From a virus: a stretch of DNA of 23,431 nucleotides. The stretch is from positions 1 to 23,431 of the IMG/VR virus record IMGVR_UViG_3300022725_000341; one strand, written 5' to 3'. Below the pieces are notes generated by a model. That model was not told where the DNA came from. It saw only the letters and a list, made by a program, of their open reading frames with translations, and ran no database searches. Position 1 is the stretch's first letter. The number at the start of each line of letters is the position of its first letter. Made by a program: the position numbers and the translations under genes. Of the stretch, positions 3,555 through 17,427 are shown one piece after another.

Positions 3555-3568
3555 CATTCCTGAGGTCG
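3555..3568. repeat. Left terminal inverted repeat of the IS (14 bp)
   Basis: CATTCCTGAGGTCG is the exact complement of the sequence at 5491-5504. It lies where terminase homology stops. Confidence 0.85.
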
Positions 3569-3595: not shown

Positions 3596-3606
3596 ACGGT
3601 TTTTAG
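3596..3606. repeat. Subterminal inverted repeat of the IS, left copy
   Basis: ACGGTTTTTAG at 3596-3606 is the exact complement of CTAAAAACCGT at 5373-5383. Each copy borders the transposase gene: the left one includes its TAA stop, and the right one lies about 19 bp upstream of its ATG. It may be an internal transposase-binding site; that role is inferred. Confidence 0.5.
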
Positions 3607-5354
3607 TTTCGATAGGTTTTTACAGGTGTGGTGAAGATGGATTCGGGCAGGCCCATTGCGCCGATGTAGTCTTTCTGGTGGTGTAGCAAGGGTCTGGAAA
3701 GCCGCCGGTTCCGTCCCGCGTTCCAGACGTACACGCTGATGTGCTGGAAGTAGTGGAAGACCATCATGGTAGTGGGCGCGGCGGTCTGCTTGTTGTCCCA
3801 GCCGAGGATGGTCGAGCCGCGTCCGCGCAGGTGTCTGCGGATCACCAACTGGATGAGGTTCCAGACCATCAGGCTGAGCAGGAGGATGAAGCCGAGGGCT
3901 TCGATGCGTTCGGCTTTTTTGAGGAAGGTGTCGTTGACGATGAGCGGGTCCTTGAGGAAGCGGAAGTTGTTCTCGATGCCGTATTGCTCCTTGTAGGCGC
4001 GCAGGATCTCCGTGCCGGTGTGGGCGTTTTCCCCTTCGTCCGGAAGGTTGCTGACGAGCACGAAGCACCCGGAGCGTTCCTTGAGTGCCTCGATCCGCTC
4101 CCGGTCCGGGACCAGGGTGGCTTCGATGCGATAGCGCGTGGCTTTGACCTTGCGGGGGCGGCCTTTCGGAGGGCGGCCCCTGGCGTAGACCGGTTCGGCG
4201 ACCACGCGGGTGTCGAGGCCGTGGTGTTTCAGGCCCGCCTTCGCGGCCAGGCCGCCGGCGTGCCGCCGGGCGTCGGCCTCGCAGGCGAAGCCGGTCTTCG
4301 CGAGTTCTTTCTCCAGTTTGCGGAAGGCCTCCCGGTCGGCGGCGAGTTGTTTGTCGAGCTTCTTGAGCCGGCGTTTGTCGTGGGCGCTGCTGTGGACGAC
4401 GACGGCGCGGTATTCGCTCCCGTAAAGCGTGACGGCGGTCTCGTGCAGTTTGTAACGGGTGCCGGGACGCTTTTGCGAGGGATCCGGGTCCGGCGCGAGC
4501 GTGCCGGCTTCCGTCCAGTCGCCGGCCTCGAAGGCGGCTTCGACGGCGCGCCCCTCTTCGCCGTAGACGGCGGGCAGGCGGGAGACGAAGTGCTGGCCGG
4601 TCTCGTCGATCGCTCCGAGGTTCGCTTCGGTGACCATGGCCGAGTCGGCGATGTAGACGTGGGCCTTCGGATCGAGCCCGTGTTTGCGGATCAGCCCGGC
4701 CACGCGGGTCAGCTCGGCGTTGTTCGCGGTCTTGTCGGAGGTGTTGCCGCTCAGAACCCCTCCGAGCAGCGGCACGCCGCCTTCCACGCACAGCGAACTC
4801 ATCATGAACTGTTTGAGATCCGGGCGGCGGTCTTTGCTGTGCCCGTGGGTGACGGCGACGACGTTCTCTCTTTCTTCGGCGTAGGCTTCGTAGGCGCCGT
4901 GCACGCTGACGCTCGTGGTGTCGTAATGCAGGTGCCGCCCGTCCAGCCCGAACCTGCCGCAGGCCTCCCACGCGATCTGCGAGAACAGCCGCGAGGCTCC
5001 GTAGGCGTGGATGTTGTCCAGGACCTTGCCGACGTTGTTGTCGTTGAAGTCGGAAGCTTTCAGATCCGTGCCGAAGAGCAGCTCCATATCTTGGCCGACA
5101 AAGTGCTCGTGCAGTTTGTAGAGCGGACTGCGCCCGCTCAGCGTGTCCATCACCATGCCCGCGACCACTTGACCGCTGCCGATGTTCTCGGGCGAATCGA
5201 TCAACGCGTCCACCGTGCGCGTCACGCCCAGCTGTTGGCAGAAGTTCGCGACGATCGGCAGCGCCGCAACCTTGTGGTCGGCGAAGTCGGAGGGCAGATC
5301 CAGTCCGCCGGATGCGGCGGAACGGGCGGAGGTTTTCGGAGGTCTGTGTGGCAT
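3603..5354 (-). CDS. IS1634-family DDE transposase
   Basis: This 583-residue transposase carries out cut-and-paste movement of the IS. The N-terminal part (about 25-115) resembles the DUF4277 region typical of the IS1634 group. The catalytic acids are best placed at D145 (HYDTTSVS), D237 (YIADSAM) and E461. The last falls in YKEQYGIENNFRFLK, which fits the Y-x2-R-x3-E-x6-K signature except that Gln replaces Arg. A Lys/Glu-rich helical insertion covers about 325-355. Length is normal for the family and no motif is broken, so the enzyme may be active. The ATG at 5354 has only a weak GGCGGG upstream. The gene reads toward the terminase fragment and portal on the same strand, with no obvious terminator between, so read-through could transcribe them. 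Confidence 0.93.
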   Translation of the reverse strand: MPHRPPKTSARSAASGGLDLPSDFADHKVAALPIVANFCQQLGVTRTVDALIDSPENIGSGQVVAGMVMDTLSGRSPLYKLHEHFVGQDMELLFGTDLKASDFNDNNVGKVLDNIHAYGASRLFSQIAWEACGRFGLDGRHLHYDTTSVSVHGAYEAYAEERENVVAVTHGHSKDRRPDLKQFMMSSLCVEGGVPLLGGVLSGNTSDKTANNAELTRVAGLIRKHGLDPKAHVYIADSAMVTEANLGAIDETGQHFVSRLPAVYGEEGRAVEAAFEAGDWTEAGTLAPDPDPSQKRPGTRYKLHETAVTLYGSEYRAVVVHSSAHDKRRLKKLDKQLAADREAFRKLEKELAKTGFACEADARRHAGGLAAKAGLKHHGLDTRVVAEPVYARGRPPKGRPRKVKATRYRIEATLVPDRERIEALKERSGCFVLVSNLPDEGENAHTGTEILRAYKEQYGIENNFRFLKDPLIVNDTFLKKAERIEALGFILLLSLMVWNLIQLVIRRHLRGRGSTILGWDNKQTAAPTTMMVFHYFQHISVYVWNAGRNRRLSRPLLHHQKDYIGAMGLPESIFTTPVKTYRN

Positions 5355-5372
5355 CCCGCCAGAGTTGATAAC

Positions 5373-5383
5373 CTAAAAACCGT
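5373..5383. repeat. Subterminal inverted repeat of the IS, right copy
   Basis: CTAAAAACCGT pairs with the copy at 3596-3606. It lies in the roughly 150-bp AT-rich leader of the transposase gene (5355-5504). The leader also contains a short hairpin-capable stretch near 5418-5436 (CCCG ... CGGG around a T-rich loop). I see no convincing promoter pair in the leader. Confidence 0.5.
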
Positions 5384-5490
5384 TGTACAAGCCTAAAATG
5401 CAATTTTCCCGCATTTTTTTCGGGGATTTTGCTTTCCGTTGATTTACAACGCTTTGCGGACTCGAAGAAAATTGAGGTTTTTTGCCTGAA

Positions 5491-6245: not shown

Positions 6246-6286
6246 GCCATTCCCCGCGCACATGGTAATGCGCTACTCGTGATCAT

Positions 6287-6325
6287 AGGGCCGGTCCCCG
6301 AGGCCGGGGACCGGCCCTCTTTTTC
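6287..6325 (+). terminator. Rho-independent terminator after the capsid gene
   Basis: A perfect 13-bp stem (AGGGCCGGTCCCC at 6287-6299, GGGGACCGGCCCT at 6306-6318) with a 6-base loop is followed by CTTTTTC. It lies 42 bp after the capsid stop and would end high-level capsid transcription, separating it from the genes that follow. Confidence 0.88.
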
Positions 6326-6333
6326 TCCCCACG

Positions 6334-6375
6334 TATCCCGAATCCCGTATCTCGAATCCCGCAACCCGCATCCCG
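6334..6375 (+). repeat. Six tandem 7-bp repeats forming the leader of the next gene
   Basis: Six consecutive units read TATCCCG, AATCCCG, TATCTCG, AATCCCG, CAACCCG and CATCCCG. They end three bases before the ATG at 6379. No Shine-Dalgarno sequence is present. Confidence 0.85.
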
Positions 6376-6378
6376 AAT

Positions 6379-6918
6379 ATGAAAGCACTCCGCATCCGCA
6401 CCCGCACCGACGAGTTCCGCCGCGCCGGCCGGGCCTTCGCCAAGACCCCCGTCCACGTCCCTCTCGACGACCTCTCCGAAGAGCAGGTCGCCGCGCTCAA
6501 GGCCGAGTCCCGCCTCCTCGTCGAGGAAGTCGAGGTCGAAGCCCAAGCCCCCGAGAACCGGGAAGGCGACCAGGGTGGCGACGAACCCTCCGGCGAGGGC
6601 GAAGCCCAGGCCCTCATCGAGCGCACCGAAACCTCCACTCTCATGGGGGCCGTCGTGGTCGTCACCGCCCAGCTGAACAACGGCTACATCCTCGTCGAGC
6701 ACTCCGTCTGCCCCGACGCCGACCGCTACGACCCCCGCGTCGGCCACGCAATCGCCATGCGCCGCGTCCTCAACCGCATCAAGGCGCTGGAATCCATGAT
6801 GTGCGTCCTGATCCTTATCCTCGCCGCGGCCGCGATCTTCTACCTCGCCTTCCACCTCGGCTACGCCGCCGGCCACTGGGATGCCACCCGCGAGACATTC
6901 GAGGAGGGCGATGAGTAG
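6379..6918 (+). CDS. Fusion protein: Mu gp35/HI1506-like N-terminus, Gp49-like domain, C-terminal membrane segment
   Basis: This 179-residue protein appears to be a three-part fusion. Residues 1-50 (RIRTRTDEFRRAGRAF ... LRAES-like LKAESRLLVEEVEV) resemble the short Mu gp35/HI1506 proteins that follow the capsid gene in Mu-like phages. Residues about 86-138 (TLMGAVVVVTAQLNNGYI, CPDADRYDPRVGHAIA, LNRIKALE) resemble the phage Gp49/Gp66 family, which normally exists as a separate small protein. Residues about 139-162 form one hydrophobic helix (MMCVLILILAAAAIFYLAFHL), followed by a short acidic tail. A charged Glu-rich linker joins the first two parts. The two family assignments are from memory of motif shape. 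Membrane anchoring of a head-region protein is unexpected. The ATG follows the tandem-repeat leader, with no ribosome binding site. Confidence 0.7.
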   Translation: MKALRIRTRTDEFRRAGRAFAKTPVHVPLDDLSEEQVAALKAESRLLVEEVEVEAQAPENREGDQGGDEPSGEGEAQALIERTETSTLMGAVVVVTAQLNNGYILVEHSVCPDADRYDPRVGHAIAMRRVLNRIKALESMMCVLILILAAAAIFYLAFHLGYAAGHWDATRETFEEGDE

Positions 6919-6938
6919 CCGAATTCGTGAGAATTCGG
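6919..6938. terminator. Perfect hairpin between convergent genes (possible bidirectional terminator)
   Basis: CCGAATTC (6919-6926) and GAATTCGG (6931-6938) form an 8-bp stem closed by GTGA, a GNRA-type loop on the plus strand. It sits exactly between the stop at 6918 and the hicB stop at 6947. There is no T-tract, so its role as a terminator is uncertain. Confidence 0.45.
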
Positions 6939-6946
6939 ACCCGCCT

Positions 6947-7309
6947 TCAGTCCAGCGCCAGCACGCTCTCGATGCGCGCCCGCTCGCTCTCGGTAAAGGG
7001 GCCCCCGCGCTCGATCTTGCTGGCCAGCGTGCTGGGCCGCATGCCCGCCTCGCGCGCCAGGCTGCGGATCTTCACGATGGGCTTGAGCCGCCGCAGGCGC
7101 GCCGCCGTGGTGTCGGGGTCGGGGGTGGGTTCGCCGTGCGCTTGCATGGATTCCACCACGCCCGCCAGCGCGTCGCGCACTTCGCGGATGGCTTCTTCCG
7201 GAGTGTCGCCGTGCGCGGCCACGTAGGCGAAGGCGGGCGCCCGCGCGATAAAGCAGGCGTCTTCCGCACTGTAGGTCACGTTGATCTGGTAGAGGTCGAT
7301 GTTTTTCAT
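6947..7309 (-). CDS. hicB: HicB-type antitoxin with C-terminal DNA-binding domain
   Basis: This 120-residue antitoxin would bind and neutralise HicA and repress its own operon. Residues about 3-62 form the HicB partial-RNase H-like fold (YQINVTYSAEDACFIARAP ... GDTPEEAIREVRDALAG). Residues about 78-118 form a helix-turn-helix region (KIRSLAREAGMRPSTLASKI). The start at 7309 is chosen because it begins the recognisable domain, has AAAGGA upstream inside hicA, and overlaps the hicA stop by four bases (ATGA). A much longer upstream extension in this frame is only the shadow of hicA. The gene runs against the phage genes, as expected for a self-regulated cargo cassette. Confidence 0.92.
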   Translation of the reverse strand: MKNIDLYQINVTYSAEDACFIARAPAFAYVAAHGDTPEEAIREVRDALAGVVESMQAHGEPTPDPDTTAARLRRLKPIVKIRSLAREAGMRPSTLASKIERGGPFTESERARIESVLALD

Positions 7310-7557
7310 GATTTTCCTTTGATTGATTTGTGGAGTTCGCGGAACTGCCGGATCTGGTATTCCTTGGCGGTGCCGTTCTTCGTCGACTGTATCGGGAAGG
7401 GCTGGGCCAGCTTCGGATGCCGCATGATCATGTGGCTCCCCTTCGTGCGGTCGTGGGTGAAGCCGCAGGCCTCCAGAGCTTTCACGAAATCGGCGAAACG
7501 CACGTTCTGCGTTTCCCCGGTCAGGATGCGGGCGAGGAGTTTTTCTTTCCGGCTCAT
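7306..7557 (-). CDS. hicA: HicA-type mRNA interferase toxin
   Basis: This 83-residue protein is a HicA toxin with a double-stranded-RNA-binding-like fold that cleaves mRNA during translation when not bound by HicB. The motif GFTHDRTKGSHMIMRHP (about 32-48) contains the usual catalytic histidine, H42, in the G-S-H context. The length is slightly above the common 60-80 residues because of an N-terminal helix. It overlaps hicB by ATGA. In type II systems of this kind the toxin gene often comes first, as here. Two matching operator palindromes lie just upstream. The cassette is probably a prophage-borne stabilisation or anti-phage module; that use is inferred from its position. Confidence 0.93.
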   Translation of the reverse strand: MSRKEKLLARILTGETQNVRFADFVKALEACGFTHDRTKGSHMIMRHPKLAQPFPIQSTKNGTAKEYQIRQFRELHKSIKGKS

Positions 7558-7570
7558 CTATCGGTAAGCT

Positions 7571-7588
7571 TGCGTAAAAAAATACGCA
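7571..7588 (-). promoter_or_regulatory. hicAB operator 1 (18-bp palindrome)
   Basis: TGCGTA at 7571-7576 and TACGCA at 7583-7588 are inverted around six A residues, 14 bp upstream of the hicA ATG. A TTGACG hexamer on the minus strand (7589-7594) abuts it and could be a -35 box, in which case the operator fills the spacer. The -10 box is not clear. Confidence 0.72.
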
Positions 7589-7599
7589 CGTCAAGCCAA

Positions 7600-7617
7600 T
7601 GCGTAAATTATTACGCA
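7600..7617 (-). promoter_or_regulatory. hicAB operator 2 (18-bp palindrome)
   Basis: TGCGTAA (7600-7606) and TTACGCA (7611-7617) flank a 4-base centre. The site has the same length and outer half-sites as operator 1 and is spaced 29 bp from it, consistent with cooperative binding of HicB multimers. Confidence 0.75.
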
Positions 7618-7639
7618 AAAACAATGGCGCTCTCACCCC

Positions 7640-7667
7640 CTTAACCCGCGTTTAAACATCGGTTAAG
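7640..7667. promoter_or_regulatory. Nested concentric palindrome upstream of the gpG-type gene
   Basis: Outer arms CTTAACC (7640-7646) and GGTTAAG (7661-7667) share a symmetry axis with an inner perfect palindrome GTTTAAAC (7650-7657). It ends 9 bp before the ATG at 7677. Such symmetry suggests a dimeric or tetrameric DNA-binding protein. It differs in sequence from the hicAB operators. Confidence 0.55.
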
Positions 7668-7676
7668 CTCCCCCCC

Positions 7677-8114
7677 ATGGCATCCATCCGCGTCCAGGCA
7701 AAAGGCTTCACCGCCAGCCAGAAGCAGCTCCTCCAGATGGGCGGCCCCGACTTCACCGCCGAGCTACTGGAGAGCGTCGGCGCGCTCGTGGAGAGCCAGA
7801 CCCGCCGCCGCATCCAGGAAGAGAAGGAATCACCCGAGGGCGAAGCCTGGGAAGCCTGGTCCGAGCGCTACGCCGCCACCCGCCACGGCGGCAACAGCCT
7901 CCTCCAGGGCGAGGGCGATCTCCTCGACTCCATCCAATACCTCGCCGGCGACGACGAAGTCGAGGTCGGCTCCAACCTCGTCTACGCCGCCACCCACCAA
8001 TACGGCGATCCCGGGCGCGGCATCCCCGCCCGCCCATACCTCGGCCTGAGCGACGAGGACGAGCAGGAAATCGACGAGCTCATCCGGGATTTCGCGGGCG
8101 ATTTGACCCGCTGA
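7677..8114 (+). CDS. Phage virion morphogenesis protein (Mu gpG / P2 gpS-like tail completion)
   Basis: This 145-residue protein belongs to the phage virion morphogenesis family (Mu gpG, P2 gpS), which acts in tail completion or head-tail joining. Typical features are SQTRRRIQEEKESPEGEAW (about 40-58), the GDLLDSIQYLAGDDEVEVGSNLVYAATHQYG core (about 81-111) and the PARPYLGLSDEDEQEI segment (about 118-133). The ATG follows a run of seven C residues with no ribosome binding site. In Mu this gene lies next to gpF; here it lies after the capsid gene and the hicAB cassette. The reading frame is complete. Confidence 0.88.
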   Translation: MASIRVQAKGFTASQKQLLQMGGPDFTAELLESVGALVESQTRRRIQEEKESPEGEAWEAWSERYAATRHGGNSLLQGEGDLLDSIQYLAGDDEVEVGSNLVYAATHQYGDPGRGIPARPYLGLSDEDEQEIDELIRDFAGDLTR

Positions 8115-8116
8115 GT

Positions 8117-8133
8117 CTGCGGTAATCCCGCAG
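8117..8133 (+). other. Short hairpin after the gpG-type gene
   Basis: CTGCGG (8117-8122) and CCGCAG (8128-8133) pair around TAATC, three bases after the stop codon. No T-tract follows, so I do not call it a terminator. It may protect the 3' end of the message. Confidence 0.35.
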
Positions 8134-8173
8134 CCTTAAGCCCCTTCCGTAAATGCGCTAAGCTGTGGGTAGC

Positions 8174-8722
8174 ATGCGCATCGTGGATTTCAGGCAGGCC
8201 GTCGCCGACGCCATCAAAACCAAGCTCCCGGATCTCCGGGAGTGCCGCCCCTACGGCGGCCGCTTCGATCTCGGCGAGCTGGCCGCCGTCTCCGCGCGGG
8301 CCCCCGCCGTCTTCGTCGCCGTCCTCCGCTCCTCCGGCAACGCCGCCTACGGCGACGGCCGCCGCCAGATCCCGCTCAACATGGCCGCCTACGTAGTCAC
8401 CGCCGACAGCCGCGACGCCGACCGCGACGAGACCGCCCTCAACCTCTGCGAGATCCTTCAGGGCTGGATTCCCCACAACCGTTTCGGCACCGCCCAATGC
8501 GCCGACCCCGGGGAAGTCCGCTGGGCCAACCTCTACTCCGGCCGCGCGCGCGGCAAGGGCGTCGCCCTCATGGCCGTCACCTGGCGGCAGGATCTCGTCG
8601 TCGGCGAGCCCGACGACCAGACCGAAGATCCCCCCGTGCCCGATACCGTCTGGCTCGGCTGCGCGCCCCGGATCGGCCTCGGCAACGAACCCCACTACGA
8701 GGAGGTCACCGCCCATGAGTGA
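8174..8722 (+). CDS. Phage Gp37-type protein (DUF1834-like)
   Basis: This 182-residue protein has the size, position and general pattern of the Mu gp37/DUF1834-like proteins that precede the tail sheath gene and probably take part in head-tail joining. Visible features are an N-terminal helix (IVDFRQAVADAIKTKLPDL), an internal beta-rich part with PAVFVAVLRSSGNAAYGDG and PLNMAAYVVTADSRDADRDE (about 46-82), and TALNLCEILQGWIP. The C-terminal 40 residues are Pro- and Asp-rich. I chose the ATG at 8174; a GTG nine bases upstream is in frame but has no supporting site. It overlaps gpV by eight bases, with the gpV ribosome binding site (GGAGG at 8701-8705) inside this gene. Confidence 0.68.
   Translation: MRIVDFRQAVADAIKTKLPDLRECRPYGGRFDLGELAAVSARAPAVFVAVLRSSGNAAYGDGRRQIPLNMAAYVVTADSRDADRDETALNLCEILQGWIPHNRFGTAQCADPGEVRWANLYSGRARGKGVALMAVTWRQDLVVGEPDDQTEDPPVPDTVWLGCAPRIGLGNEPHYEEVTAHE
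8701..8705 (+). promoter_or_regulatory. Ribosome binding site of gpV
   Basis: GGAGG lies nine bases before the ATG at 8715, inside the preceding gene. It is one of only a few clear Shine-Dalgarno sites in the operon. Confidence 0.7.
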
Positions 8723-9398
8723 GCTCGAAGACCTCTCCCGCGAGCAGTTCGCCCGCCGCCTCGCCAACCTCGTCCGCATCGGCACCGTCGAGCACGCCGA
8801 CTACGCCGCCGCCCGCGCCCGCGTGCGCATCGGCACCCTCGTCACCGACTGGCTGCCGTGGATGGTCGAGCGCGCCGGCCCCGACCGCGACTGGGCCGCC
8901 CCCGAGGTCGGCGAGCAGGTCGTCGTCCTCTCGCCCTCCGGCGATTCCGCCCTCGGCGTCATCGCCGGCCGCATCTATCGCGACGCCCATCCCGCCAACG
9001 GCGACCGCGAGACCCTCCGCCGCGTCACCTTCGCCGACGGCACCGTCTGCGAGTATGACCGCGCCGCCCACCGCCTGCACGTCAACGTCCCCCAGGGCGG
9101 CGCCCAGGTCCGCGTCGATTCCGGCTCCCGCGTCGACGTCCAGGCCGCCTCCGAGGTCACCCTCACCGCCGGCGCGAAGATCACCCTCGCCGCGCCCCTC
9201 ATCGCCCTCAACGGCGACGTCACCCAGGACGCCGCCTCCGGCCCCGCCAACTCCGTCCACCTCCGCGCCTCGCACGTTACCATCGAAGGCCCCGTCACCC
9301 AGACCGGCGGCGACATGACCAGCGACGGCGTCTCGGCCCAGCATCACACCCACGGCGGCGTCGAGCCCGGCGGCGGCAACACCGGCGAGCCCAACTGA
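8715..9398 (+). CDS. V: Baseplate assembly / central spike protein (P2 gpV-like)
   Basis: This 227-residue protein is a P2 gpV-type baseplate spike that forms the membrane-piercing needle at the tail tip. The N-terminal OB-fold-like domain covers about 18-90 (VEHADYAAARARVRIGTLVTDWLPWM, VGEQVVVLSPSGD). Repetitive beta-helix sequence follows (VRVDSGSRVDVQAASEVTLTAG). The tip has HHTHGG, whose H211-x-H213 pair is the iron-binding motif of gpV trimers, in the usual HTHGGVxPG context. The start is fixed by GGAGG nine bases upstream and an eight-base overlap with the preceding gene. In P2 this gene stands directly before W and J; here it stands before the sheath gene, about 7 kb from W. Confidence 0.93.
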   Translation: MSELEDLSREQFARRLANLVRIGTVEHADYAAARARVRIGTLVTDWLPWMVERAGPDRDWAAPEVGEQVVVLSPSGDSALGVIAGRIYRDAHPANGDRETLRRVTFADGTVCEYDRAAHRLHVNVPQGGAQVRVDSGSRVDVQAASEVTLTAGAKITLAAPLIALNGDVTQDAASGPANSVHLRASHVTIEGPVTQTGGDMTSDGVSAQHHTHGGVEPGGGNTGEPN

Positions 9399-9419
9399 CC
9401 ACCGCAACGAAAATCAACC

Positions 9420-9459
9420 CGAAGCCCCACTCGTGCGGGCGTAGAGAAACGAAGCCCCA
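9420..9459 (+). repeat. 10-bp direct repeat in the leader of the next gene
   Basis: CGAAGCCCCA occurs at 9420-9429 and again at 9450-9459, exactly 30 bp apart. The second copy runs into the ATG at 9459. No ribosome binding site is present. Confidence 0.6.
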
Positions 9460-9692
9460 TGGCCGAAGCCAACCAATATCGCGTAGTCAAAACCCTGCGG
9501 CACCGGGGCGCACGTTATGCCCCCGACGCCGTAATCACACTCGAAAAACGTCAGGCCGATCTGCCCCTGCGTCAGGGAAAGATCGTCCTGTCCTCCGAAG
9601 CTCGAAGAGCGAAGGGGGGCCCGATTCAACCCGCCGCCCCGCGCAAGCGCGGCCGCAAAACCTCCAAAAAACAAACCACGCCCGGCAACTGA
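9459..9692 (+). CDS. Small basic phage protein of unknown function
   Basis: This 77-residue protein begins with YRVVKTLRHRGARYAPDAVITLEKRQADLPLRQGKIVL (about 7-44). The pattern resembles small phage proteins of DUF7210 type that often sit just upstream of the tail sheath gene, although the match is only to the general layout: y-v-x-pL-h-G-x-y-x-P-x-x-x-i-x-L. The C-terminal 30 residues are rich in Lys, Arg and Pro (PRKRGRKTSKKQ) and probably disordered and nucleic-acid-like in charge. Function is not known. Mu gp38 and similar small proteins occupy this position. The C-biased codon use supports it as a real gene. Confidence 0.72.
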   Translation: MAEANQYRVVKTLRHRGARYAPDAVITLEKRQADLPLRQGKIVLSSEARRAKGGPIQPAAPRKRGRKTSKKQTTPGN

Positions 9693-9729
9693 AGACCGGC
9701 CAACCGAAAACCGGAAAACCAACCTAATC

Positions 9730-11118
9730 ATGTCAGACCTCATCCACGGCATCGAAGTTCTCGAAATCGACAGCGGCATCCGCCCGATTTCGACCATCCG
9801 CACCTCCGTCATCGGCCTCGTCGGCACCGCCGCCCGAGGCCCCGTCAACACGCCCACGCTCGTCACCGGCCGCCGCGACGCCCTTGAGAAATTCGGCACC
9901 GGGGGCACCATCGCCCGCGCCTTCGAGGCCATCTACGCCCAGGCCGGCGCGATGGTCGTCGTCGTCAACGTGCTCGACCCCGGCACCGCCGGCCACGTCA
10001 CCGAGGTCGGCGTCGAGGACCTCGGCTCCGGCCACCAGGTGGGCGACGTCATCGCCCTGGCCAACCAGCACCTCACCGCCTTCACCGGCCTCGCCCAGGA
10101 CCCCTTAGGCGCCGCCACCGCCCTCGTCGAAGGCACCGACTACACCGTCGATCCCGACGCCGGCACCATCACCCTACTCAAAGACATCGGCGACGACGCC
10201 CTCGCCGCAACCTACACCGCCGCCGACTTCTCCGGCGTCACCGGCCAGGAAGTCGCCGGAGAGCTGCTGCCGCAGACCGGCGTCTACGGCCTGATCGCCT
10301 CCGAGAGCGTCACCGGCTTCGTGCCCAAGATCCTCGTCGCCCCCGGCTTCGCCCACTTCGAGTCGGATCTCTCGGCCGCGACCGCCATCGTCCCCGCCCT
10401 CGTCACCGTGGCCGACCGCCTCCGCGCCGTCACCTTCATCGACGGGCCGAACACCGACAAGGCCGAGGCCATCACCGCCGCCGGCCTCGTCGCCGGCGAC
10501 CGCGCCCGCGTCGGCCTCGTCGATCCCTCCGTCGATACCGACGACGGCGCCCGCGCCTCCTCCGCCTACGCCGCCGGCGTCCAGGCCATGGTCGACAACG
10601 AAAAGGGCTTCTGGTGGTCGCTCTCCAACCAGACGATCAACGGCATCCTCGGCACCGGCCGGCCCGTCGACTTCGCCCTCGGCGATCCCGCCAGCGAGGC
10701 CGAGGCGCTGAATGCCCAGCACATCATCACCATCGTCAACAAGGGCGGCTTCCGCATCTGGGGCAACCGCTCCCTCGAGACCGTCGATCCCAAGTGGAAG
10801 TTCCTCTGCGTCCGCCGCACCGCCGACATGATCAACGAAAGCCTCCTCCGCGCCCACCTCTGGGCCGTCGACCGGCCCATCACCAAGACCTACGTCGACG
10901 AGGTCATCGCCGGCGTCAAAGCCTACCTCCGCCACCTCGTCGCCCAGGGCGGCATCCTCGGCGGCGACGTCTGGGCCGATCCCGAGCTCAACACCCCCGA
11001 GAGCATCGCCAACGGCCACGTCTGGTTCGACTTCGATTTCACGCCCGTTTACCCGGCCGAGAAGATCACCTTCCGCTCCCGCCTCGTGAACGACTACGTC
11101 GAAACCATCTTCGAATAA
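9730..11118 (+). CDS. FI: Contractile tail sheath protein (P2 FI-like)
   Basis: This 462-residue protein is the tail sheath that contracts during DNA injection. The N-terminus (DLIHGIEVLEIDSGIRPISTIRTSVIGLVGTA) is the P2 FI signature. It is followed by a surface domain in which TALVEGTDYTVDPDAGTITL (about 137-156) is a typical inserted beta-domain. The C-terminal conserved domain includes GFRIWGNRSLETVDPKWKFLCVRR and the segment with DVWADPELNTPESIANGHVWFDFDFTPVYPAEKITF. Length is normal for this group, which is slightly larger than P2 FI because of the insert. There is no ribosome binding site; the leader is a repetitive AACCGG/AAAACC stretch (9693-9729). Confidence 0.96.
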   Translation: MSDLIHGIEVLEIDSGIRPISTIRTSVIGLVGTAARGPVNTPTLVTGRRDALEKFGTGGTIARAFEAIYAQAGAMVVVVNVLDPGTAGHVTEVGVEDLGSGHQVGDVIALANQHLTAFTGLAQDPLGAATALVEGTDYTVDPDAGTITLLKDIGDDALAATYTAADFSGVTGQEVAGELLPQTGVYGLIASESVTGFVPKILVAPGFAHFESDLSAATAIVPALVTVADRLRAVTFIDGPNTDKAEAITAAGLVAGDRARVGLVDPSVDTDDGARASSAYAAGVQAMVDNEKGFWWSLSNQTINGILGTGRPVDFALGDPASEAEALNAQHIITIVNKGGFRIWGNRSLETVDPKWKFLCVRRTADMINESLLRAHLWAVDRPITKTYVDEVIAGVKAYLRHLVAQGGILGGDVWADPELNTPESIANGHVWFDFDFTPVYPAEKITFRSRLVNDYVETIFE

Positions 11119-11135
11119 GCGCGAACCAACGACCC

Positions 11136-11161
11136 ACCACTCAACCACTCAACCACTCAAC
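11136..11161 (+). repeat. Tandem 8-bp repeats forming the tail-tube gene leader
   Basis: Three full copies of ACCACTCA and part of a fourth occupy 11136-11161, ending three bases before the ATG at 11165. No Shine-Dalgarno sequence is present. Confidence 0.85.
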
Positions 11162-11164
11162 AAA

Positions 11165-11659
11165 ATGATCCCCGCCATCCTCAAAAACATGAGCCTCGCC
11201 CTCGAAGGCGTCGGCTACCTCGGCAAGGTCGACGAACTCGTCCCGCCCAAACTCGTCCTCAAAGTCGAAGAGCACCGCGCCGGCGGCATGGACGCCCCCC
11301 TCGAACTCGACATGGGCATGGAAGCCATGGTCGCCGAGTTCTCCACCTCCGGCCTCGAATCCGGCATCCTCGCCAAATTCGGCGCCCGCACCGACCGCCT
11401 CACCTTCCGGGGCGCGTATCAGGATAACGACGACAACGTCGTCCCCGTCAAAATCCAGATGTCCGGCCGCTTCAAAGAAAACGACATGGGCACCTGGACC
11501 GCCGGCGAGAAAGCCGCCGACAAGGCCGTCCTCGCCGTCGACTACGTCGAAGTCGTCGTCGACGGCCGCCAGCTCGTCGAGATCGACGTCGAGAACATGA
11601 TCCGCCGCATCGACGGCGTCGACCAGCTCGAACGCCAACGCGCCGCCATCGAGATCTAG
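11165..11659 (+). CDS. FII: Major tail tube protein (P2 FII-like)
   Basis: This 164-residue protein forms the inner tail tube inside the sheath. It matches the P2 FII family: IPAILKNMSLALEGVGYLGKVDEL at the N-terminus, AGGMDAPLELDMGMEAMVAEF in the middle, the beta-strand block with FRGAYQDNDDNVVPVKIQM, and a C-terminal VDYVEVVVDGRQLVEIDVENMI. The length is as expected for FII. It directly follows the sheath gene as in P2, with an intergenic leader made of tandem 8-bp repeats. The frame is intact. Confidence 0.95.
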   Translation: MIPAILKNMSLALEGVGYLGKVDELVPPKLVLKVEEHRAGGMDAPLELDMGMEAMVAEFSTSGLESGILAKFGARTDRLTFRGAYQDNDDNVVPVKIQMSGRFKENDMGTWTAGEKAADKAVLAVDYVEVVVDGRQLVEIDVENMIRRIDGVDQLERQRAAIEI

Positions 11660-11711
11660 CCGCCCCTTGTCCGATCACCCGCAACCCGCCCCCCGAAAGG
11701 AGCGCCCCGGC

Positions 11712-12011
11712 TTGGAGTCCTTACTCACGGCCCCCGAGCTGGCGGCGCTCCTCAAGGTGGCCGACCGCTGGACCGAGATCGACGAAGAGGAGCAGGCCCT
11801 CGCCGACACCCTCCACGACCTCCACCGCCGCCATCCCCGCCTCGTCCGCCTCCACTCCCCATACCGCCCCGAAGAGCGCGCCGGCATCGTCCTCCACGCC
11901 ATGGCCACCCCGCGCGGCCGCGAACTCGCCCACGCCTACGAAATAGGCCTCAACCAACCGAACTCCCATGGAATCCAAAAAAGTAACCCTCAAAAAACCC
12001 GTCAAACGTGA
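11712..12011 (+). CDS. Small protein of unknown function between tube and chaperone genes
   Basis: This 99-residue protein is not a family I recognise. It is mostly helical and charged, with a possible amphipathic segment LLTAPELAALLKVADRWTEI and a Glu-rich stretch near residue 25. I place the start at the TTG at 11712 because AAAGGAG (11696-11702) lies nine bases upstream; another TTG at 11667 would add 15 residues but has no such site. The last 44 bases overlap the E gene. Codon use is strongly C-ending in this frame, which supports real coding. Its place in the operon suggests a tail-assembly role; this is inferred only from position. Confidence 0.6.
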   Translation: MESLLTAPELAALLKVADRWTEIDEEEQALADTLHDLHRRHPRLVRLHSPYRPEERAGIVLHAMATPRGRELAHAYEIGLNQPNSHGIQKSNPQKTRQT

Positions 12012-12243
12012 GGGCGAATCGCCCGTCACCGAACTGTCCTTCCGCGAGCCCACCGGCAAAGACCTGAAGGTCCTCGACAAGACCAAAGGCCACATCGCCG
12101 GGACCATCGCGCTCGCCGCCCGCGTCTGCGAGCAGGGCCTCTCGCCCGAGGATTTCGACGCCATGCCCGCCTCCGACCTCATGCCCGTCATGGAATGCCT
12201 GGGGGAGTGGATCGCCCCGGAGACCACGCTCTCCGGGGAATGA
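11968..12243 (+). CDS. E: Tail assembly chaperone (P2 gpE-like)
   Basis: This 91-residue protein is a phage tail assembly chaperone of the P2 E / Phage_TAC_7 type, which coats the tape measure before tube polymerisation. Key features are TELSFREPTGKDLKVLDKTKG (about 21-41), matching the family's L.eP...dl..ld pattern, then the helical segment AARVCEQGLSPEDFDAMPASDLM (about 50-72). Its length equals that of P2 gpE. It starts inside the preceding gene with no ribosome binding site and ends in ATGA, overlapping the start of E'. The slippery site used in P2 for the -1 shift is not obvious here, though GGGGAA precedes the stop. Confidence 0.87.
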   Translation: MESKKVTLKKPVKREGESPVTELSFREPTGKDLKVLDKTKGHIAGTIALAARVCEQGLSPEDFDAMPASDLMPVMECLGEWIAPETTLSGE

Positions 12244-12356
12244 TCGGCGACGTCGCGATCACCTTCTTCACCTCCATCGACTACCTCGAAAACCTGCCCC
12301 TCTCCGAGCTTCGCGCCTGGCATGAGGAGGCCCGCCGCCGAGCCCCCAAGCAATAG
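12240..12356 (+). CDS. Short P2 GpE'-like tail chaperone extension as a separate ORF
   Basis: This 38-residue open reading frame, MIGDVAITFFTSIDYLENLP followed by LSELRAWHEEARRRAPKQ, matches the P2_GpE (PF06528) pattern of a short DVA-x-x-F start and an L-x-EL-x-x-W-x-x-x-A helix. In P2 this segment is the E' part, joined to E by a -1 ribosomal frameshift. Here it has its own ATG, which overlaps the E stop by ATGA, and it lies in the -1 frame of E. It may therefore be made by coupled reinitiation, by frameshifting at GGGGAA (12235-12240), or both. It lies between E and the tape measure gene, as expected. Confidence 0.8.
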   Translation: MIGDVAITFFTSIDYLENLPLSELRAWHEEARRRAPKQ

Positions 12357-12369
12357 CCGTAGAGCCGCT

Positions 12370-12393
12370 CACTCCCACTCTCACTCTCACTCC
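12370..12393 (+). repeat. Tandem 6-bp repeats in the tape-measure leader
   Basis: Four consecutive units CACTCC, CACTCT, CACTCT and CACTCC occupy 12370-12393, ending seven bases before the ATG at 12401. The same hexamer forms the leader of gene D at 15098-15133. Confidence 0.85.
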
Positions 12394-12400
12394 GCAAGGC

Positions 12401-14413
12401 ATGGCCGAATTCGCCGCATCCATCGTCATCTCCGCGGTCGACCGCCTCACCCGGCCGGCCCGGCGGATCGCCGCCTCGGTGGATCGGGTGACGCGGGCCA
12501 ACAAGCGCCTCGACGACGGCATGGCACAAGGCAACCGCCGCCTCGACGAACGCCGCCGCCACCTCGAAAACGTCCGCCGCTCCACCGAGCGCCTCGGCAA
12601 GGCCCGGGAGCGCGCGCAAAGGGTCATGCTCGGCGCGGGCGGCGCGGCCGTCGCCGGCTTCGGCATCCGGCGCGCCGGCCAGGCCCTCCTCCGCCCCCTC
12701 CTCGGCTCCCTCGGCGAGGCCAGCCAGCGCAGGGACTTCGAGACCAGCCTCGGCGTCCTCCTCGGCGGCGCCACCGAGGCGCGCAAACGCATGGAGGAGC
12801 TCACGCGCTTCGGGGCGACCACCCCCTTCGAGCTTCCCGGCATCGTCCGCGCCTCCATCACGCTCGAGACGCTCACCCAGGGCGCCTTCTCCACCGGCGA
12901 GGGCCTCCGTCTGGTCGGCGACGTCGCGGCCGGGGTGAATCAACCCATCGAGGAACTCTCCATGTGGTTCGGCCGCCTCTACGACGGTATTCGATCCGGC
13001 CGCCCCGTCGGCGAAGCCATGATGCGCTTCCAGGAACTCGGCATCATCAGCGGCGAGACCCGCAACCGCATCGAGGAGATGCAGAAGGCCGGCGCGGACG
13101 GCGATAAAATCTGGGCCGTCGCCACCAAAGCCTTCGGCCGCTTCTCCGGCATGATGGACCAGCGCAGCCGCGAACTCTCCGGCCTATGGTCGAACCTCGT
13201 CGACCAGTGGAGCAACCTCCGCGCCGCCATCGGCAAGCCCCTTATCCCCGTCGTCAAGCCCCTCATTAGCGGCCTCACCAAAGTCCTCGGCATCGTCACC
13301 TCCCTTCTCGAACGCTTCCCCTGGCTCGCCGGCATCATCGGCGCCGCCACCGGCGCGCTGGCCGTCATGACCATCGGCGTCGGCGCGCTCGTCACCGCCG
13401 GCGGCGTCCTCGTCGGTTCCCTCGCGGCCGTCTCCTTCGGCATGGAGTGGCTCTCCGTCAAGACGCGCCTGGCCAACTCCCGCATGCTCGCCTTCCACGG
13501 AACCAACCTCATGACAAGCAAGGGCCTGCTCATCACCGCCGGGGCGGCCAAGGCCCGCTTCCTCGCCGCCACCAAGTGGGCCTGGGCGCTCGCGGGCGGT
13601 GCGATCCCCGGCATCATCGGAGCCGTCAAAGCCCTCGGCGCGGCCATCCTCGCCATACCCGGCATCGGCCCGATTGTCGCCGCCGTCGCCGTCATTGCGG
13701 CCGCCATCTATACCTTCTGGAATCCCATCAAGGCATTCTTCGTCGGGTGGATGGAAGGCTTCCTCGAGGCCCTCGCTCCCGTCTGGGATGCCTTCCGGCC
13801 CTTCATCGATTTCGCCCAATGGCTGGGGCCGAAGGTCATGTCCATCATCGGCATGGGGCCGCCCGAGCTGGAGAAGATGTCGGGCGCTGCCGCCAAAGTC
13901 GGCCGCGTCATGGGCACCGTCTTCGGCACCGTGGTCCGCACCTTGACCGCTCCCTTCCGGCTCCTGGTCGCCATCGGCGAAACCGTCGGGGATCTCGTCT
14001 CCCTTTTCACCGGCCTCATCAAACCCGTCGAGGTCCTCGCCAACCTCTGGGATCGCATCAAAGGCTTCTTCGGCTTCGGCGGCGGCAAAGACAAGCGCTC
14101 CCCGTCCGCCGCCGCCGAGCGCGCCACCTCGCCCGCCCGCCGCGCCCGCCGCGTCGTCGCCGCCGGCACCCTCGCCGCCGCGCCCGCCTTCGCCTCCCCC
14201 GCCGATACCGGCGCCGTCACCTCGCCCGACCCAATAGTCCGCTCCGTCCGGGGCGGCGACGTCATGAACGTCACCGCCCCCGTCACCGTCAACGTGCCCC
14301 CCGGCGTCGACTCCCGCGAAGTCGGCCGCGAAGTCGAGCGCGCCGTCCGGCGCGCCATGCGCGAGGCCGATACCCGCCGCCGCGCCGAGAAAAGGAGGAA
14401 CCTCTATGGCTAG
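12401..14413 (+). CDS. T: Tail tape measure protein (P2 gpT-like)
   Basis: This 670-residue protein sets tail length. The N-terminus (VISAVDRLTRPARRIAASVDRVTRANKRLD) and the conserved block from FETSLGVLLGGATEARKRME to FGATTPFELPGIV are typical of Mu/P2-type tape measures. Residues about 20-70 are a charged coiled coil. Several hydrophobic helices follow, near 305-345 and 395-440 (for example AAILAIPGIGPIVAAVAVI). The C-terminal part is Ala/Arg/Pro-rich, with a final charged helix (REVGREVERAVRRAMREADT). Length is within the family range, implying a fairly short tail. It overlaps U by eight bases and carries the U ribosome binding site AGGAGG (14393-14398). Confidence 0.93.
   Translation: MAEFAASIVISAVDRLTRPARRIAASVDRVTRANKRLDDGMAQGNRRLDERRRHLENVRRSTERLGKARERAQRVMLGAGGAAVAGFGIRRAGQALLRPLLGSLGEASQRRDFETSLGVLLGGATEARKRMEELTRFGATTPFELPGIVRASITLETLTQGAFSTGEGLRLVGDVAAGVNQPIEELSMWFGRLYDGIRSGRPVGEAMMRFQELGIISGETRNRIEEMQKAGADGDKIWAVATKAFGRFSGMMDQRSRELSGLWSNLVDQWSNLRAAIGKPLIPVVKPLISGLTKVLGIVTSLLERFPWLAGIIGAATGALAVMTIGVGALVTAGGVLVGSLAAVSFGMEWLSVKTRLANSRMLAFHGTNLMTSKGLLITAGAAKARFLAATKWAWALAGGAIPGIIGAVKALGAAILAIPGIGPIVAAVAVIAAAIYTFWNPIKAFFVGWMEGFLEALAPVWDAFRPFIDFAQWLGPKVMSIIGMGPPELEKMSGAAAKVGRVMGTVFGTVVRTLTAPFRLLVAIGETVGDLVSLFTGLIKPVEVLANLWDRIKGFFGFGGGKDKRSPSAAAERATSPARRARRVVAAGTLAAAPAFASPADTGAVTSPDPIVRSVRGGDVMNVTAPVTVNVPPGVDSREVGREVERAVRRAMREADTRRRAEKRRNLYG
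14393..14398 (+). promoter_or_regulatory. Ribosome binding site of gpU
   Basis: AGGAGG lies seven bases before the ATG at 14406, within the tape measure gene. It decides the start. Confidence 0.78.
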
Positions 14414-14828
14414 CGACATCATGCTCGCCCTCCGCGACGGGGCCGACGTCTACACCTTCGGCCTCGATACCGCCGCCTATCAATCCATGCGCCGGGCTAC
14501 CAAATGGCGCTGGGCCGCCCAGCCCCGCGCCGGCCGCCGCCCCGCCATGCAGTTCACCGGCAAGGGCGAAGACCGCATCACCCTCGAAGGCGCCATTTAC
14601 CCCCACTTTAAAGGCGGGTTAAACCAGCTTCCACGCATGCGCGAAGAGGCCGACAAAGGCCGCCCCTTCCTCCTCGCCGACAGCCTCGGCCGCGTCGACT
14701 ACGGCTACTGGTGCATCGAGTCCGTCGAGGACGTGCAGGACCACTTCATGCGCGGCGGCCTGCCCCGCAAGATCGTCTTCACCCTCACCCTCGTCGCCTA
14801 CGGCGAAGACACCTACCGCATCCCATGA
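14406..14828 (+). CDS. U: Tail completion / tube terminator protein (P2 gpU-like)
   Basis: This 140-residue protein is a P2 gpU-like tail protein, which caps the tube and sheath once the right length is reached. Supporting signals are TAAYQSMRRATKWRWAAQPR (about 21-40), GKGEDRITLEGAIYPHFKGG (about 52-71) and LADSLGRVDYGYWCIESVED (about 90-109). The start is fixed by AGGAGG seven bases upstream inside the tape measure gene. It ends with ATGA, which starts the next gene. Gene order T-U-X-D agrees with P2 relatives. Confidence 0.93.
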   Translation: MASDIMLALRDGADVYTFGLDTAAYQSMRRATKWRWAAQPRAGRRPAMQFTGKGEDRITLEGAIYPHFKGGLNQLPRMREEADKGRPFLLADSLGRVDYGYWCIESVEDVQDHFMRGGLPRKIVFTLTLVAYGEDTYRIP

Positions 14829-15049
14829 CCGACGCCACCTACCGCACCAAAGGCGGCGAAGTCCTCGACGCCATCTGCCACCGCCACTACGGCCGCATCG
14901 AAGGCAACATCGAGCAAGTCCTCGAAACCAACCCCGGCCTCGCCGGCCGCGGCGCCATCCTCCCGCGCGGCATCCGCATCACGCTCCCCGCCGTCCCCGG
15001 CCGCGACTCCACCCCCGCCATCCTTCCCACCATCCGCCTCTGGGACTGA
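14825..15049 (+). CDS. X: Tail protein X (P2 gpX-like, LysM-type)
   Basis: This 74-residue protein matches the P2 gpX tail protein family, which has a LysM-like fold and belongs to the baseplate or tail tip. The pattern YRTKGGEVLDAICHRHYGRI followed by VLETNPGLAGRGAILPRGI and RITLP is characteristic (GD-x-LD-x-I-x-x-x-x-YG ... VLEANPGLA ... LP.G..I.LP). The ATG overlaps the U stop by four bases. The length agrees with the family. Confidence 0.93.
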   Translation: MTDATYRTKGGEVLDAICHRHYGRIEGNIEQVLETNPGLAGRGAILPRGIRITLPAVPGRDSTPAILPTIRLWD

Positions 15050-15097
15050 ATTACGTTCCCACCCACTTCCCCGTCGCGCCGAAGAGCGAAGGCGGAT

Positions 15098-15133
15098 CAC
15101 TCTCACTTTCACTCTCAGTCTCACTCTCACTCT
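15098..15133 (+). repeat. Six tandem 6-bp repeats in the gene D leader
   Basis: Six consecutive hexamers with consensus CACTCT (two carry one substitution, CACTTT and CAGTCT) occupy 15098-15133. They end two bases before the GTG at 15136. No ribosome binding site is present. Confidence 0.88.
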
Positions 15134-15135
15134 CC

Positions 15136-16182
15136 GTGACTCCCTTCTACCGCATACTGGCCGACGCCAAAGACGACCGCGACCACGCCGCCGAGATCAC
15201 CGAGCGCATCCGCGACCGCCTCGTCTCGCTCACCCTGACCGACGAGTCCGGCCTAAAGAGCGATGCCCTCGAGCTGATCCTCGACGACCGCGACCACGCC
15301 ATCGCCACCCCCCGCAAAGGCGTCGAGCTGCGCTGTTTCCTCGGCTACCGAGAGACCGGCGTCCATCCCATGGGCCTCTACGTCGTCGACGAGGTCGACT
15401 TCACCGGCCCGCCCGCCCGCATGGCCATCCGCGCCAAAGCCGTCGCCCTCGAAGAGTCGGAGACCGTCTCCGGCCTCACCGACGCCCTCAAAGAAGAGCG
15501 CACCCGCTCCTGGCACGGCTTCACCATAGGCGACATCCTCGCTACCATCGCCGAGGCCGCCGGCTACTACCCCAAGATCGACGCCGCCCTCGCCCAAGTC
15601 GAGATCCCCCACATCGACCAAACCGCCGAGAGCGACATGAACTTCCTCTCCCGCCTCGCCGTCGATTACGACGCCCTCTTCAAGCCCGCCGGGTCGGCCC
15701 TCCTGTTCCTCCCCCGCGCCGCCACCGTCGACGGCGTGCCCCGCGTCCTCATCCGGGGCCCGTTCTCCCAGGCCGCCAGCAACGACACCGCCCACGAATG
15801 GAGCCTCAACCTCCCCGAGCGCGAACGCTACGCCCGCGTCATGGCCACCTACCACGACCACGACGCCGGCGAACTCGTCGAAGTCGTCACCGGCGGCGAA
15901 GGCCCCATCAAGATCCTCGAAGACCCCCGGCCCGACGAGCGCCAGGCCATCCGCGCCGCCGTCGCCGAGCTGCAACGCATCCGCCGGCGCAAAGGCAGCG
16001 GCTCCGTCACCGTATCCGGCAATCCACTACTCATGGCAGAGGGCGTCGTCCGCTTCGAAGGCTTCCGCCCCGACTTCGCCGGCGACTGGCTCGTCGAGAA
16101 AGCCGTCCACACCGTCGACGAGCAGGGCTACGCCACCACCATAGACTTCCGCGTCAAAGGAGAGGAGGGCGACGATGCCTGA
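15136..16182 (+). CDS. D: Baseplate hub / late control protein (P2 gpD-like)
   Basis: This 348-residue protein is a P2 gpD-type hub that joins the tube to the central spike. The N-terminus has ITERIRDRLVSLTLTDESGL and DALELILDDRD (about 16-51), then the GVELRCFLGYRETGVHPMGLYVVDEVDF strand pattern. The conserved middle carries ESDMNFLSRLAVDYDALFKPAG (about 162-183). The C-terminus is LVEKAVHTVDEQGYATTIDF. It starts with GTG two bases after a six-unit repeat leader, an unusual start context. It overlaps W by eight bases and holds the W ribosome binding site (GGAGAGGAGG, 16159-16168). Confidence 0.93.
   Translation: MTPFYRILADAKDDRDHAAEITERIRDRLVSLTLTDESGLKSDALELILDDRDHAIATPRKGVELRCFLGYRETGVHPMGLYVVDEVDFTGPPARMAIRAKAVALEESETVSGLTDALKEERTRSWHGFTIGDILATIAEAAGYYPKIDAALAQVEIPHIDQTAESDMNFLSRLAVDYDALFKPAGSALLFLPRAATVDGVPRVLIRGPFSQAASNDTAHEWSLNLPERERYARVMATYHDHDAGELVEVVTGGEGPIKILEDPRPDERQAIRAAVAELQRIRRRKGSGSVTVSGNPLLMAEGVVRFEGFRPDFAGDWLVEKAVHTVDEQGYATTIDFRVKGEEGDDA
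16159..16168 (+). promoter_or_regulatory. Ribosome binding site of gpW
   Basis: GGAGAGGAGG lies just before the ATG at 16175, within the end of gene D. Confidence 0.72.
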
Positions 16183-16530: not shown

Positions 16531-17427
16531 ATGGCCAATCCCTTCAGCGCAATCGACCTCTCCCAGCTCCCCGCGCCCGACGTGGTGGAGCCGCTCGACG
16601 TCGAGGCCATCGTCGCCGAGATCCTCGACGAATACACCGAGACCAACCCCGAATTCAGCGCCCGGGTCGAGAGCGAGCCCGTCCTCAAGCTCGTCGAGCT
16701 CATCGCCTACCGCGAGTTCCTCCTTCGCCAGCGCGTCAACGACGCCGCCCGCGCCGTCATGCTCGCTTACTCCGGCGGGGCCGACCTCGAAAACCTCGCC
16801 GCGCTCTTCGGCCTCCAGCGCAAGCTCGTCGACCCCGGAGATCCCCAGGCCATCCCGCCCGTCGAGCCCACCTACGAGTCCGACGCCGACTTCCGCAAGC
16901 GCACCCAGCTCGCCCTCGAAGGCTTCTCCGTCGCCGGCCCCGCCGGGGCCTACATCTTCCACGGCCTCGCCGTCGACCTCGTCAAAGACATCTCCGTCAC
17001 CTCCCCCGTCCCCGGCGACGTCCTCGTCTCCGTCCTCTCCACCCAGGGCGACGGCACCCCCGATCAGGCGCTCCTCGATGCCGTCTTCGCCGCGCTCAAT
17101 GCCGACGACGTTCGCCCCCTCACCGACCACCTCACCGTCCAGGCCCCCACGATCAAGACCTACGCCGTCCAGGCCGAAATCGTCACCCTCGAAGGCCCCG
17201 ACAGCGCCGAAGTCATCGCCGCCGCCGAAGAGGCCGTCGCCGCCTACGTCGAAGGCCAGCACCGCCTCGGCCGCGACATTACCCTCTCCGGCCTCTACGC
17301 CGCCCTCCACCAGGGAGGCACCTACAAGGTCAACCTCACGCAGCCCGCCGCCGAGATCCTCAACTCCGAGCACGAAGCCGCCTACTGCACCGGCATCACC
17401 CTAACCCACGGAGGCACCGATGAGTAG
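16531..17427 (+). CDS. J: Baseplate protein J (P2 gpJ-like)
   Basis: This 298-residue protein is a P2 gpJ-type baseplate wedge protein. The N-terminus (FSAIDLSQLPAPDVVEPLDV, then EILDEYTETNPEF) and the block LKLVELIAYREFLLRQRVNDAARAVMLAYSGGADLENLAALFG (about 51-93) are typical. So is FRKRTQLALEGFSVAGPAGAY. The C-terminal RDITLSGLYAALHQGGTYKV block completes the match. Length is as expected. Its ATG comes two bases after the W stop. It overlaps I by eight bases, with GGAGG at 17410-17414 serving I. Confidence 0.95.
   Translation: MANPFSAIDLSQLPAPDVVEPLDVEAIVAEILDEYTETNPEFSARVESEPVLKLVELIAYREFLLRQRVNDAARAVMLAYSGGADLENLAALFGLQRKLVDPGDPQAIPPVEPTYESDADFRKRTQLALEGFSVAGPAGAYIFHGLAVDLVKDISVTSPVPGDVLVSVLSTQGDGTPDQALLDAVFAALNADDVRPLTDHLTVQAPTIKTYAVQAEIVTLEGPDSAEVIAAAEEAVAAYVEGQHRLGRDITLSGLYAALHQGGTYKVNLTQPAAEILNSEHEAAYCTGITLTHGGTDE
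17410..17414 (+). promoter_or_regulatory. Ribosome binding site of gpI
   Basis: GGAGG lies five bases before the ATG at 17420, within the end of gene J. Confidence 0.72.

Follow-up and report, generated by a model that had tools for sequence, protein, structure and literature searches.

What do short, pyrimidine-rich tandem repeats do when they sit directly ahead of phage genes that lack a Shine-Dalgarno (SD) sequence? The question is raised by the late region of a 23,431-base IMG/VR virus record (IMGVR_UViG_3300022725_000341), which was analysed over its whole length and is referred to here as the window. Four of its intergenic leaders contain tandem arrays, with units of 6, 7 or 8 bp. We find that these arrays are real and unusual for phages of this type, and their sequences place them in a known bacterial class of intergenic short tandem repeats, mostly heptamers. 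They probably represent spacer sequence born of replication slippage and filtered by strand, which would serve an SD-poor phage as passive, open leaders; we give this explanation a probability of about 60%.

Four late-gene leaders contain tandem arrays

The four arrays and the genes that they precede are as follows.

6335..6375, + strand: 7-bp array (ATCCCGN)n, leader of a FluMu_N/gp49-like gene; about 6 copies, about 78% matches, partly decayed
11136..11161, + strand: 8-bp array (ACCACTCA)n, leader of the tail tube gene; 3.2 copies, 100% matches, no G
12370..12392, + strand: 6-bp array (CACTCY)n, leader of the tape measure gene; about 4 copies, 89% matches
15097..15134, + strand: 6-bp array (CACTCY)n, leader of gpD, within an 86-nt spacer; 6.3 copies, 87% matches

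Tandem Repeats Finder set the bounds at 6335-6378 (7 bp), 11136-11161 (8 bp, perfect), 12368-12392 (6 bp) and 15097-15134 (6 bp). By our own lag scoring the arrays end 3, 3, 8 and 1 nt before the starts at 6379, 11165, 12401 and 15136, respectively, close to the two to seven bases given in a first-pass annotation made from the sequence alone. The tandem-repeat leaders which that annotation had described at these four starts were borne out. Each leader beats all 300 of its own dinucleotide shuffles (p ≤ 1/301), and the nine curated late-region spacers (615 bp) hold four arrays where 300 rounds of spacer shuffling produced none. Chance and low sequence complexity were considered as sources of the arrays and are ruled out by the shuffles. 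Two further leaders that had been called repetitive, ahead of 9459 (p = 0.88) and 9730 (p = 0.12), did not differ significantly from shuffled sequence. Three other places in the window have arrays of similar score; their units are 6 or 12 bp long, and each lies inside a reading frame. The four spacers, by comparison, hold head-to-tail copies of a unit of 5-11 nt, beyond chance and in non-coding DNA, as is characteristic of the intergenic repeat class.

Rarity was judged from the spacer shuffles and from a single automatic pipeline applied to all records. The pipeline called array leaders at 4/24 open reading frames (ORFs) in the window, one of which (that of the first array) was assigned to the wrong ORF, versus 9/1360 ORFs in 82 other records, and it found none in some 60 sheath-related loci. 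These measures were used instead of a comparison between 4/9 curated window spacers and 5/501 automatic spacers, which is biased, the automatic rule recovering only 1/8 in the window.

A GC-rich hairpin with a T run (6285-6325; hairpin 6285-6322), read by eye from the sequence, precedes the 7-bp array by about 10 nt, so that 6379 has its array leader directly downstream of a terminator-like site.

Shine-Dalgarno sites and arrays do not form a two-way split

The first-pass annotation had set repeats and SD sites against each other, with repeats instead of SD sequences in intergenic leaders and GGAGG-type sites in genes that start inside an upstream gene. We see a clear SD at 4/20 plus-strand starts, each belonging to a gene that overlaps its upstream neighbour.

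8698..8706, + strand: SD of gene V (GAGGAGG region); V overlaps its upstream gene
14391..14399, + strand: SD of gene U (AAGGAGG region); U overlaps its upstream gene
16159..16169, + strand: SD of gene W (GGAGAGGAGG region); W overlaps its upstream gene
17410..17415, + strand: SD of gene I (GGAGG region); I overlaps its upstream gene

The association with overlap is significant (4/7 overlapping versus 0/13 non-overlapping starts, p = 0.007), and for V, U, W and I the annotation was right. The pattern does not extend to gene X, the peptidase gene and the tail chaperone gene, which overlap upstream genes yet lack an SD. The four genes with array leaders are all SD-less.

6379..6918, + strand: gene with FluMu_N and Phage_gp49_66 domains; SD-less start
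11165..11659, + strand: tail tube protein (Phage_tube); SD-less start
12401..14413, + strand: tape measure protein; SD-less start; TMP_3 match below the curated cut-off
15136..16182, + strand: baseplate hub protein gpD; GTG start, SD-less

As a two-way split the proposal fails: most SD-less starts have no repeat, and similar arrays coexist with SD sequences in some cases in other genomes. J and the fibre genes, for instance, which start 1-4 nt past a stop, lack an SD as well as an array. Since nine of the 13 non-overlapping starts lack both features, the repeats are one kind of SD-less leader rather than the counterpart of the SD.

Array leaders are predicted to be unfolded

Folding was computed as minimum free energy (MFE) from −40 to +25 around each start. 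The array leaders gave values of 0.0 to −6.1 kcal/mol versus a background mean of −18.1, which puts them in the 98-100th percentile and among the weakest-folding starts of the window. The four SD starts (−12.2 to −17.4 kcal/mol) are similar to background. Values for SD-less starts without an array are mostly between 0 and −9.3 kcal/mol, the exceptions being 8174, 9459, gpF and hicA. SD starts are more folded than SD-less starts (p = 0.015; p = 0.03 leaving out the array leaders), and the array leaders are less folded than the remaining SD-less starts (p = 0.007). By prediction, SD-less starts are thus less folded than both SD starts and background, the pattern associated with SD-independent initiation via unfolded leaders.

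Letter-shuffled versions of the leaders of 6379, 11165 and 15136 were equally unfolded; for the leader of 12401 the native order folds somewhat more weakly than its shuffles. By prediction, composition, chiefly the lack of G, and not repetition accounts for the unfolded leaders. This divides the earlier proposal that the repeats serve translation initiation. SD-less and unusually unfolded starts fit an SD-independent mode of initiation, but a need for repetition itself is not supported, shuffled leaders being equally unfolded in 3/4 cases.

Related phages lack arrays at the same junctions

The gpX-gpD spacer is 86 nt long in the window (15050-15135), its last 39 nt being occupied by the gpD array, versus a median of −4 nt and a maximum of 9 nt in 17 relatives. 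At the sheath-tube junction the median spacer is 12 nt (35 loci), and an SD-like motif (GGAG or GGGAG) is present in 7/9 loci with spacers of 36-62 nt. In L019, whose sheath is the most similar in sequence to that of the window, the tube gene begins 4 nt past the sheath stop. At these junctions the arrays are missing in relatives, and in the window phage they belong to expanded spacers. An 86-nt gap would also break any translational coupling between gpX and gpD, two genes that in 17/17 relatives either overlap or almost abut.

Arrays elsewhere follow a strand rule

Multi-array spacers were found in three further phages (G309, L157 and L066) and in cellular genomes. A search for the 8-bp unit ahead of an ATG led to locus L210, part of the 24.7-kb record G309, which has no gpT or sheath match. 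Around ten arrays of 7-9-bp units lie in the spacers of this record, nearer to starts than expected under a geometric null (p = 0.001). They include an exact 8-mer match to the window unit, which is not independent evidence as the record was retrieved with that unit, together with CACTAATT/CACTCATT arrays at starts. Several spacers of the gpT relative L157 contain 7-bp arrays, there alongside SD sequences. L066 has hexamer arrays of CACTTT/CACTCT type in four positions; their distances from starts, where measured, were 14, 27 and 138 nt. Three of the hexamer-array spacers of L066 (reverse strand, 975-1060, 4391-4616 and 6802-6874) share TTATATCGCTTACACT ahead of the array; this stretch may be a promoter of the phage or a module that was copied.

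Arrays were typed as C-type or G-type and scored by whether they lie on the start or the stop side of co-directional spacers. For the window, G309 and L157 together, the start:stop counts are 14:0 for C-type and 0:6 for G-type arrays (p = 2.6e-5), on curated spacers in which some G309 and L157 starts were picked by eye (e.g. 19698 in G309). The window's share is 4:0 for C-type arrays with no G-type array, so that only half of the rule is testable there. Because of the starts chosen by eye, the test was repeated on 1.25 Mb of cellular genomes with an automatic start rule, and it gave 9:4 for C-type and 3:13 for G-type arrays (p = 0.0095). Heptamers make up 23/30 of the cellular arrays, one of the 30 being an untyped run of N, and an SD is present at 3/9 start-side C-type arrays. 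These genomes hold 29 arrays in 375 spacers versus 0 in shuffled spacers; some were chosen since a first sample had arrays, so 29/375 is not a general rate, and the strand test is less affected by this choice.

The distribution of such arrays is uneven. The spacer pipeline found none in seven Cytophagales/Rhodothermales plasmid stretches (350 kb), so that the feature is patchy and SD-poor translation alone does not bring arrays. Among 297 whole genomes from a single phylum, none was found to contain a CACTCY array with an ATG after it. When viral contigs were scanned for CACTCT and ATCCCGA arrays, most of the hits were simple repeats of unrelated kinds, and the automatic strand test on these loci gave 3:4/1:0.

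Genomic setting

The window combines Mu-like head genes (Portal_Mu, Phage_Mu_F, gpT, gp37 and Phage_tail_S) with P2-like tail genes (sheath, tube, gpE-type chaperone, tape measure, U, X, D, W, J, I and fibres). A transposase with DUF4277 and DDE domains (3603-5403), whose plasmid relatives are annotated as IS1634 family, is flanked by a truncated terminase (2723-3557, minus strand) and the gpT gene (plus strand). This gpT gene starts part-way into the gpT profile, and the left head module has the opposite orientation to the remainder of the window, as after a rearrangement linked to an insertion sequence or a misassembly. Within the late region, the minus strand carries a gene for a HicA-like toxin together with a short partner (6947-7557), which is HicB-like by weak plasmid matches. 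The Mu/P2-type late region ends with a 232-aa protein (22733-23431) whose phage relatives, chiefly in actinobacterial phages, are annotated as peptidase or cysteine protease.

Sheath relatives of the window are at most 57% identical, and a search of the genome collection with the sheath protein gave no near relative; nor was any close relative of the window found in the collections searched. A host search with transposase, peptidase, lipoprotein and HicB queries found no host. Leaders of the verrucomicrobial phage P8625 are SD-poor and A/C-rich, but without arrays, and a verrucomicrobial host for the window is only a guess.

Discussion

The first-pass annotation knew of no named mechanism for such repeats. 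Two papers do describe the same kind of array, whose function is putative. MacGregor (2015, PMC4679880) reported 169 TAACTGA repeat sets in a Beggiatoaceae genome (Cand. Maribeggiatoa, BOGUAY), mostly no more than several nucleotides upstream of start codons and with an SD in only about 10% of repeat-bearing regions; direct repeats of this unit also occur in some Cyanobacteria and Bacteroidetes. The window arrays resemble these in overlapping the ribosome-binding region of SD-less starts (gaps of 1-8 nt), in the rarity of SD sequences and in their single orientation towards the start. They differ in that one conserved heptamer is replaced, in a phage, by units of 6, 7 and 8 bp (ATCCCGN, ACCACTCA and CACTCY). 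Rehm (2015, PMC4692102) described GGGAATC and GGGGA(C/T)T heptamers in Xanthomonas and Nostoc, often as convergent pairs, with the G-rich strand antisense up to 50 bp upstream of ORFs or sense past stops. Such heptamers are over-represented in many genomes, and slippage had been proposed for them (PMC4692102). Here the likeness lies in the intergenic tandem arrangement, the C-rich mRNA strand before ORFs, the G-rich strand past stops and the paired convergent arrays, and the 7-bp unit of the window, read as GAATCCC, differs by one base from GATTCCC.

For the Rehm heptamers, with their G-tracts (most often in four units), DNA structure has been suggested: a G-quadruplex on the non-coding strand and an i-motif on the coding strand. 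In favour of this, the 7-bp array, close to Xanthomonas GATTCCC (PMC4692102), has C-triplets in most, though not all, of its units. The 8-bp units and nearly all of the 6-bp units lack runs of three C or G and so cannot form either structure, yet they are placed in the same way, which makes a structural role of the DNA very improbable in the window.

We favour an explanation in which the arrays grew by stepwise duplication, through replication slippage, in the few non-coding stretches of a compact genome. They would then be tolerated under a rule of strand and position, with G-poor arrays of C/A/U type on the start side and G-type arrays past stops; the counts above bear out part of this. The presumed reason for such a filter is that the message just before a start codon, above all where there is no SD, would need to be poor in G, open and free of false SD motifs. 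An unfolded array leader may then give the 30S subunit access to the start codon, a passive role in which G-poor composition matters and the repetition mainly records the origin of the spacer. Scharff (2011, PMC3121790) linked SD-independent initiation to a local dip in mRNA structure and confirmed this with reporters; the window shows, by prediction, the same contrast between SD-less and SD starts, and is unlike that system in that repeats are involved. Baez (2019, PMC6847099) showed that initiation in Bacteroidetes is SD-poor, with a Kozak-like A at −3 and the anti-SD kept. SD-less leaders tuned by structure are common to both cases; in place of A-rich motifs at fixed positions the window has C-rich arrays.

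Several observations weigh against this explanation. The slippage origin is something that we infer. In the window, short spacers account for part of the nearness to the start, random placement within each spacer giving a combined p of 0.075-0.08, so that array position there does not beat the geometric null. In L066, hexamer arrays lie 27 and 138 nt from the start. In G309 (L211/L212; spacers 2712-2937 and 12795-13124, reverse strand), G-type post-stop arrays pair with complementary C-type pre-start arrays into long predicted hairpins (MFE −66.6 versus −31.0 in shuffles, and −127.0 versus −80.7), so that arrays would not always mean an open leader, although the window has no G-type arrays matching this arrangement. 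Lastly, the pentamer CACTC is common to three of the window's four arrays, which an account based purely on composition does not predict.

The shared pentamer bears most directly on the idea that the ribosomal protein S1, a cold-shock-type protein or another RNA-binding protein reads the pyrimidine-rich unit and recruits ribosomes. MacGregor proposed binding by S1, cold-shock or Csr-type proteins for TAACTGA, or else irrelevance (PMC4679880). The window arrays cover the region where an SD would lie, TCACT on the plus strand occurs in leaders in 9/9 cases and within arrays in 8/9, and the unrelated phage G309 has the 8-mer match and its other arrays at starts, with the dependence on our query already mentioned. 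Unit length and sequence, by contrast, vary between leaders, the majority of SD-less starts have no array, and CACTC outside arrays is not clearly enriched in leaders (2/12). We consider specific recognition unlikely, and keep it in view because three arrays share CACTC and a published proposal exists.

The remaining alternatives are less likely. Rho binds C-rich, G-poor RNA with regularly spaced YC steps, and the arrays resemble RNA of this type, so they might be Rho-utilisation stretches or parts of promoters or attenuators between gene blocks. The terminator-like hairpin ahead of the 7-bp array and the TTATATCGCTTACACT stretch ahead of the three L066 arrays would fit a transcriptional role; no conserved element was seen ahead of the window arrays, and we rate such a role as improbable. 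Hardly better placed is the suggestion, made in the first-pass annotation, that the repeats are slippage-prone tuners, with changes in copy number altering spacing or translation strength and thereby varying tail gene expression. The perfect 8-mer array (11136-11161) is what one would expect of such a tuner, and there is precedent in indels of 7-nt steps between closely related Cyanothece strains (PMC4679880) and in array length variation among Xanthomonas strains (PMC4692102). The copies, however, are few (3-6) and several are decayed, the genes are structural tail genes and not typical contingency genes, and phase variation was considered unlikely for heptamers by the authors who described them (PMC4692102). 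The tuner proposal thus found no support.

A broader claim would be that start-proximal arrays of 6-9-nt units form a general, cross-phylum class of SD-independent leaders, shared by phages and hosts, with a strand rule set by translation and CACTC-like units recognised by the initiation machinery. We regard this as speculative and unlikely. In short, start-proximal simple repeats, known in a few bacteria as one heptamer per genome, are also found in phages with mixed units of 6, 7 and 8 bp. The strand rule does not need quadruplex-forming G-tracts, and this points to accessibility of the mRNA at the start codon as the filter.
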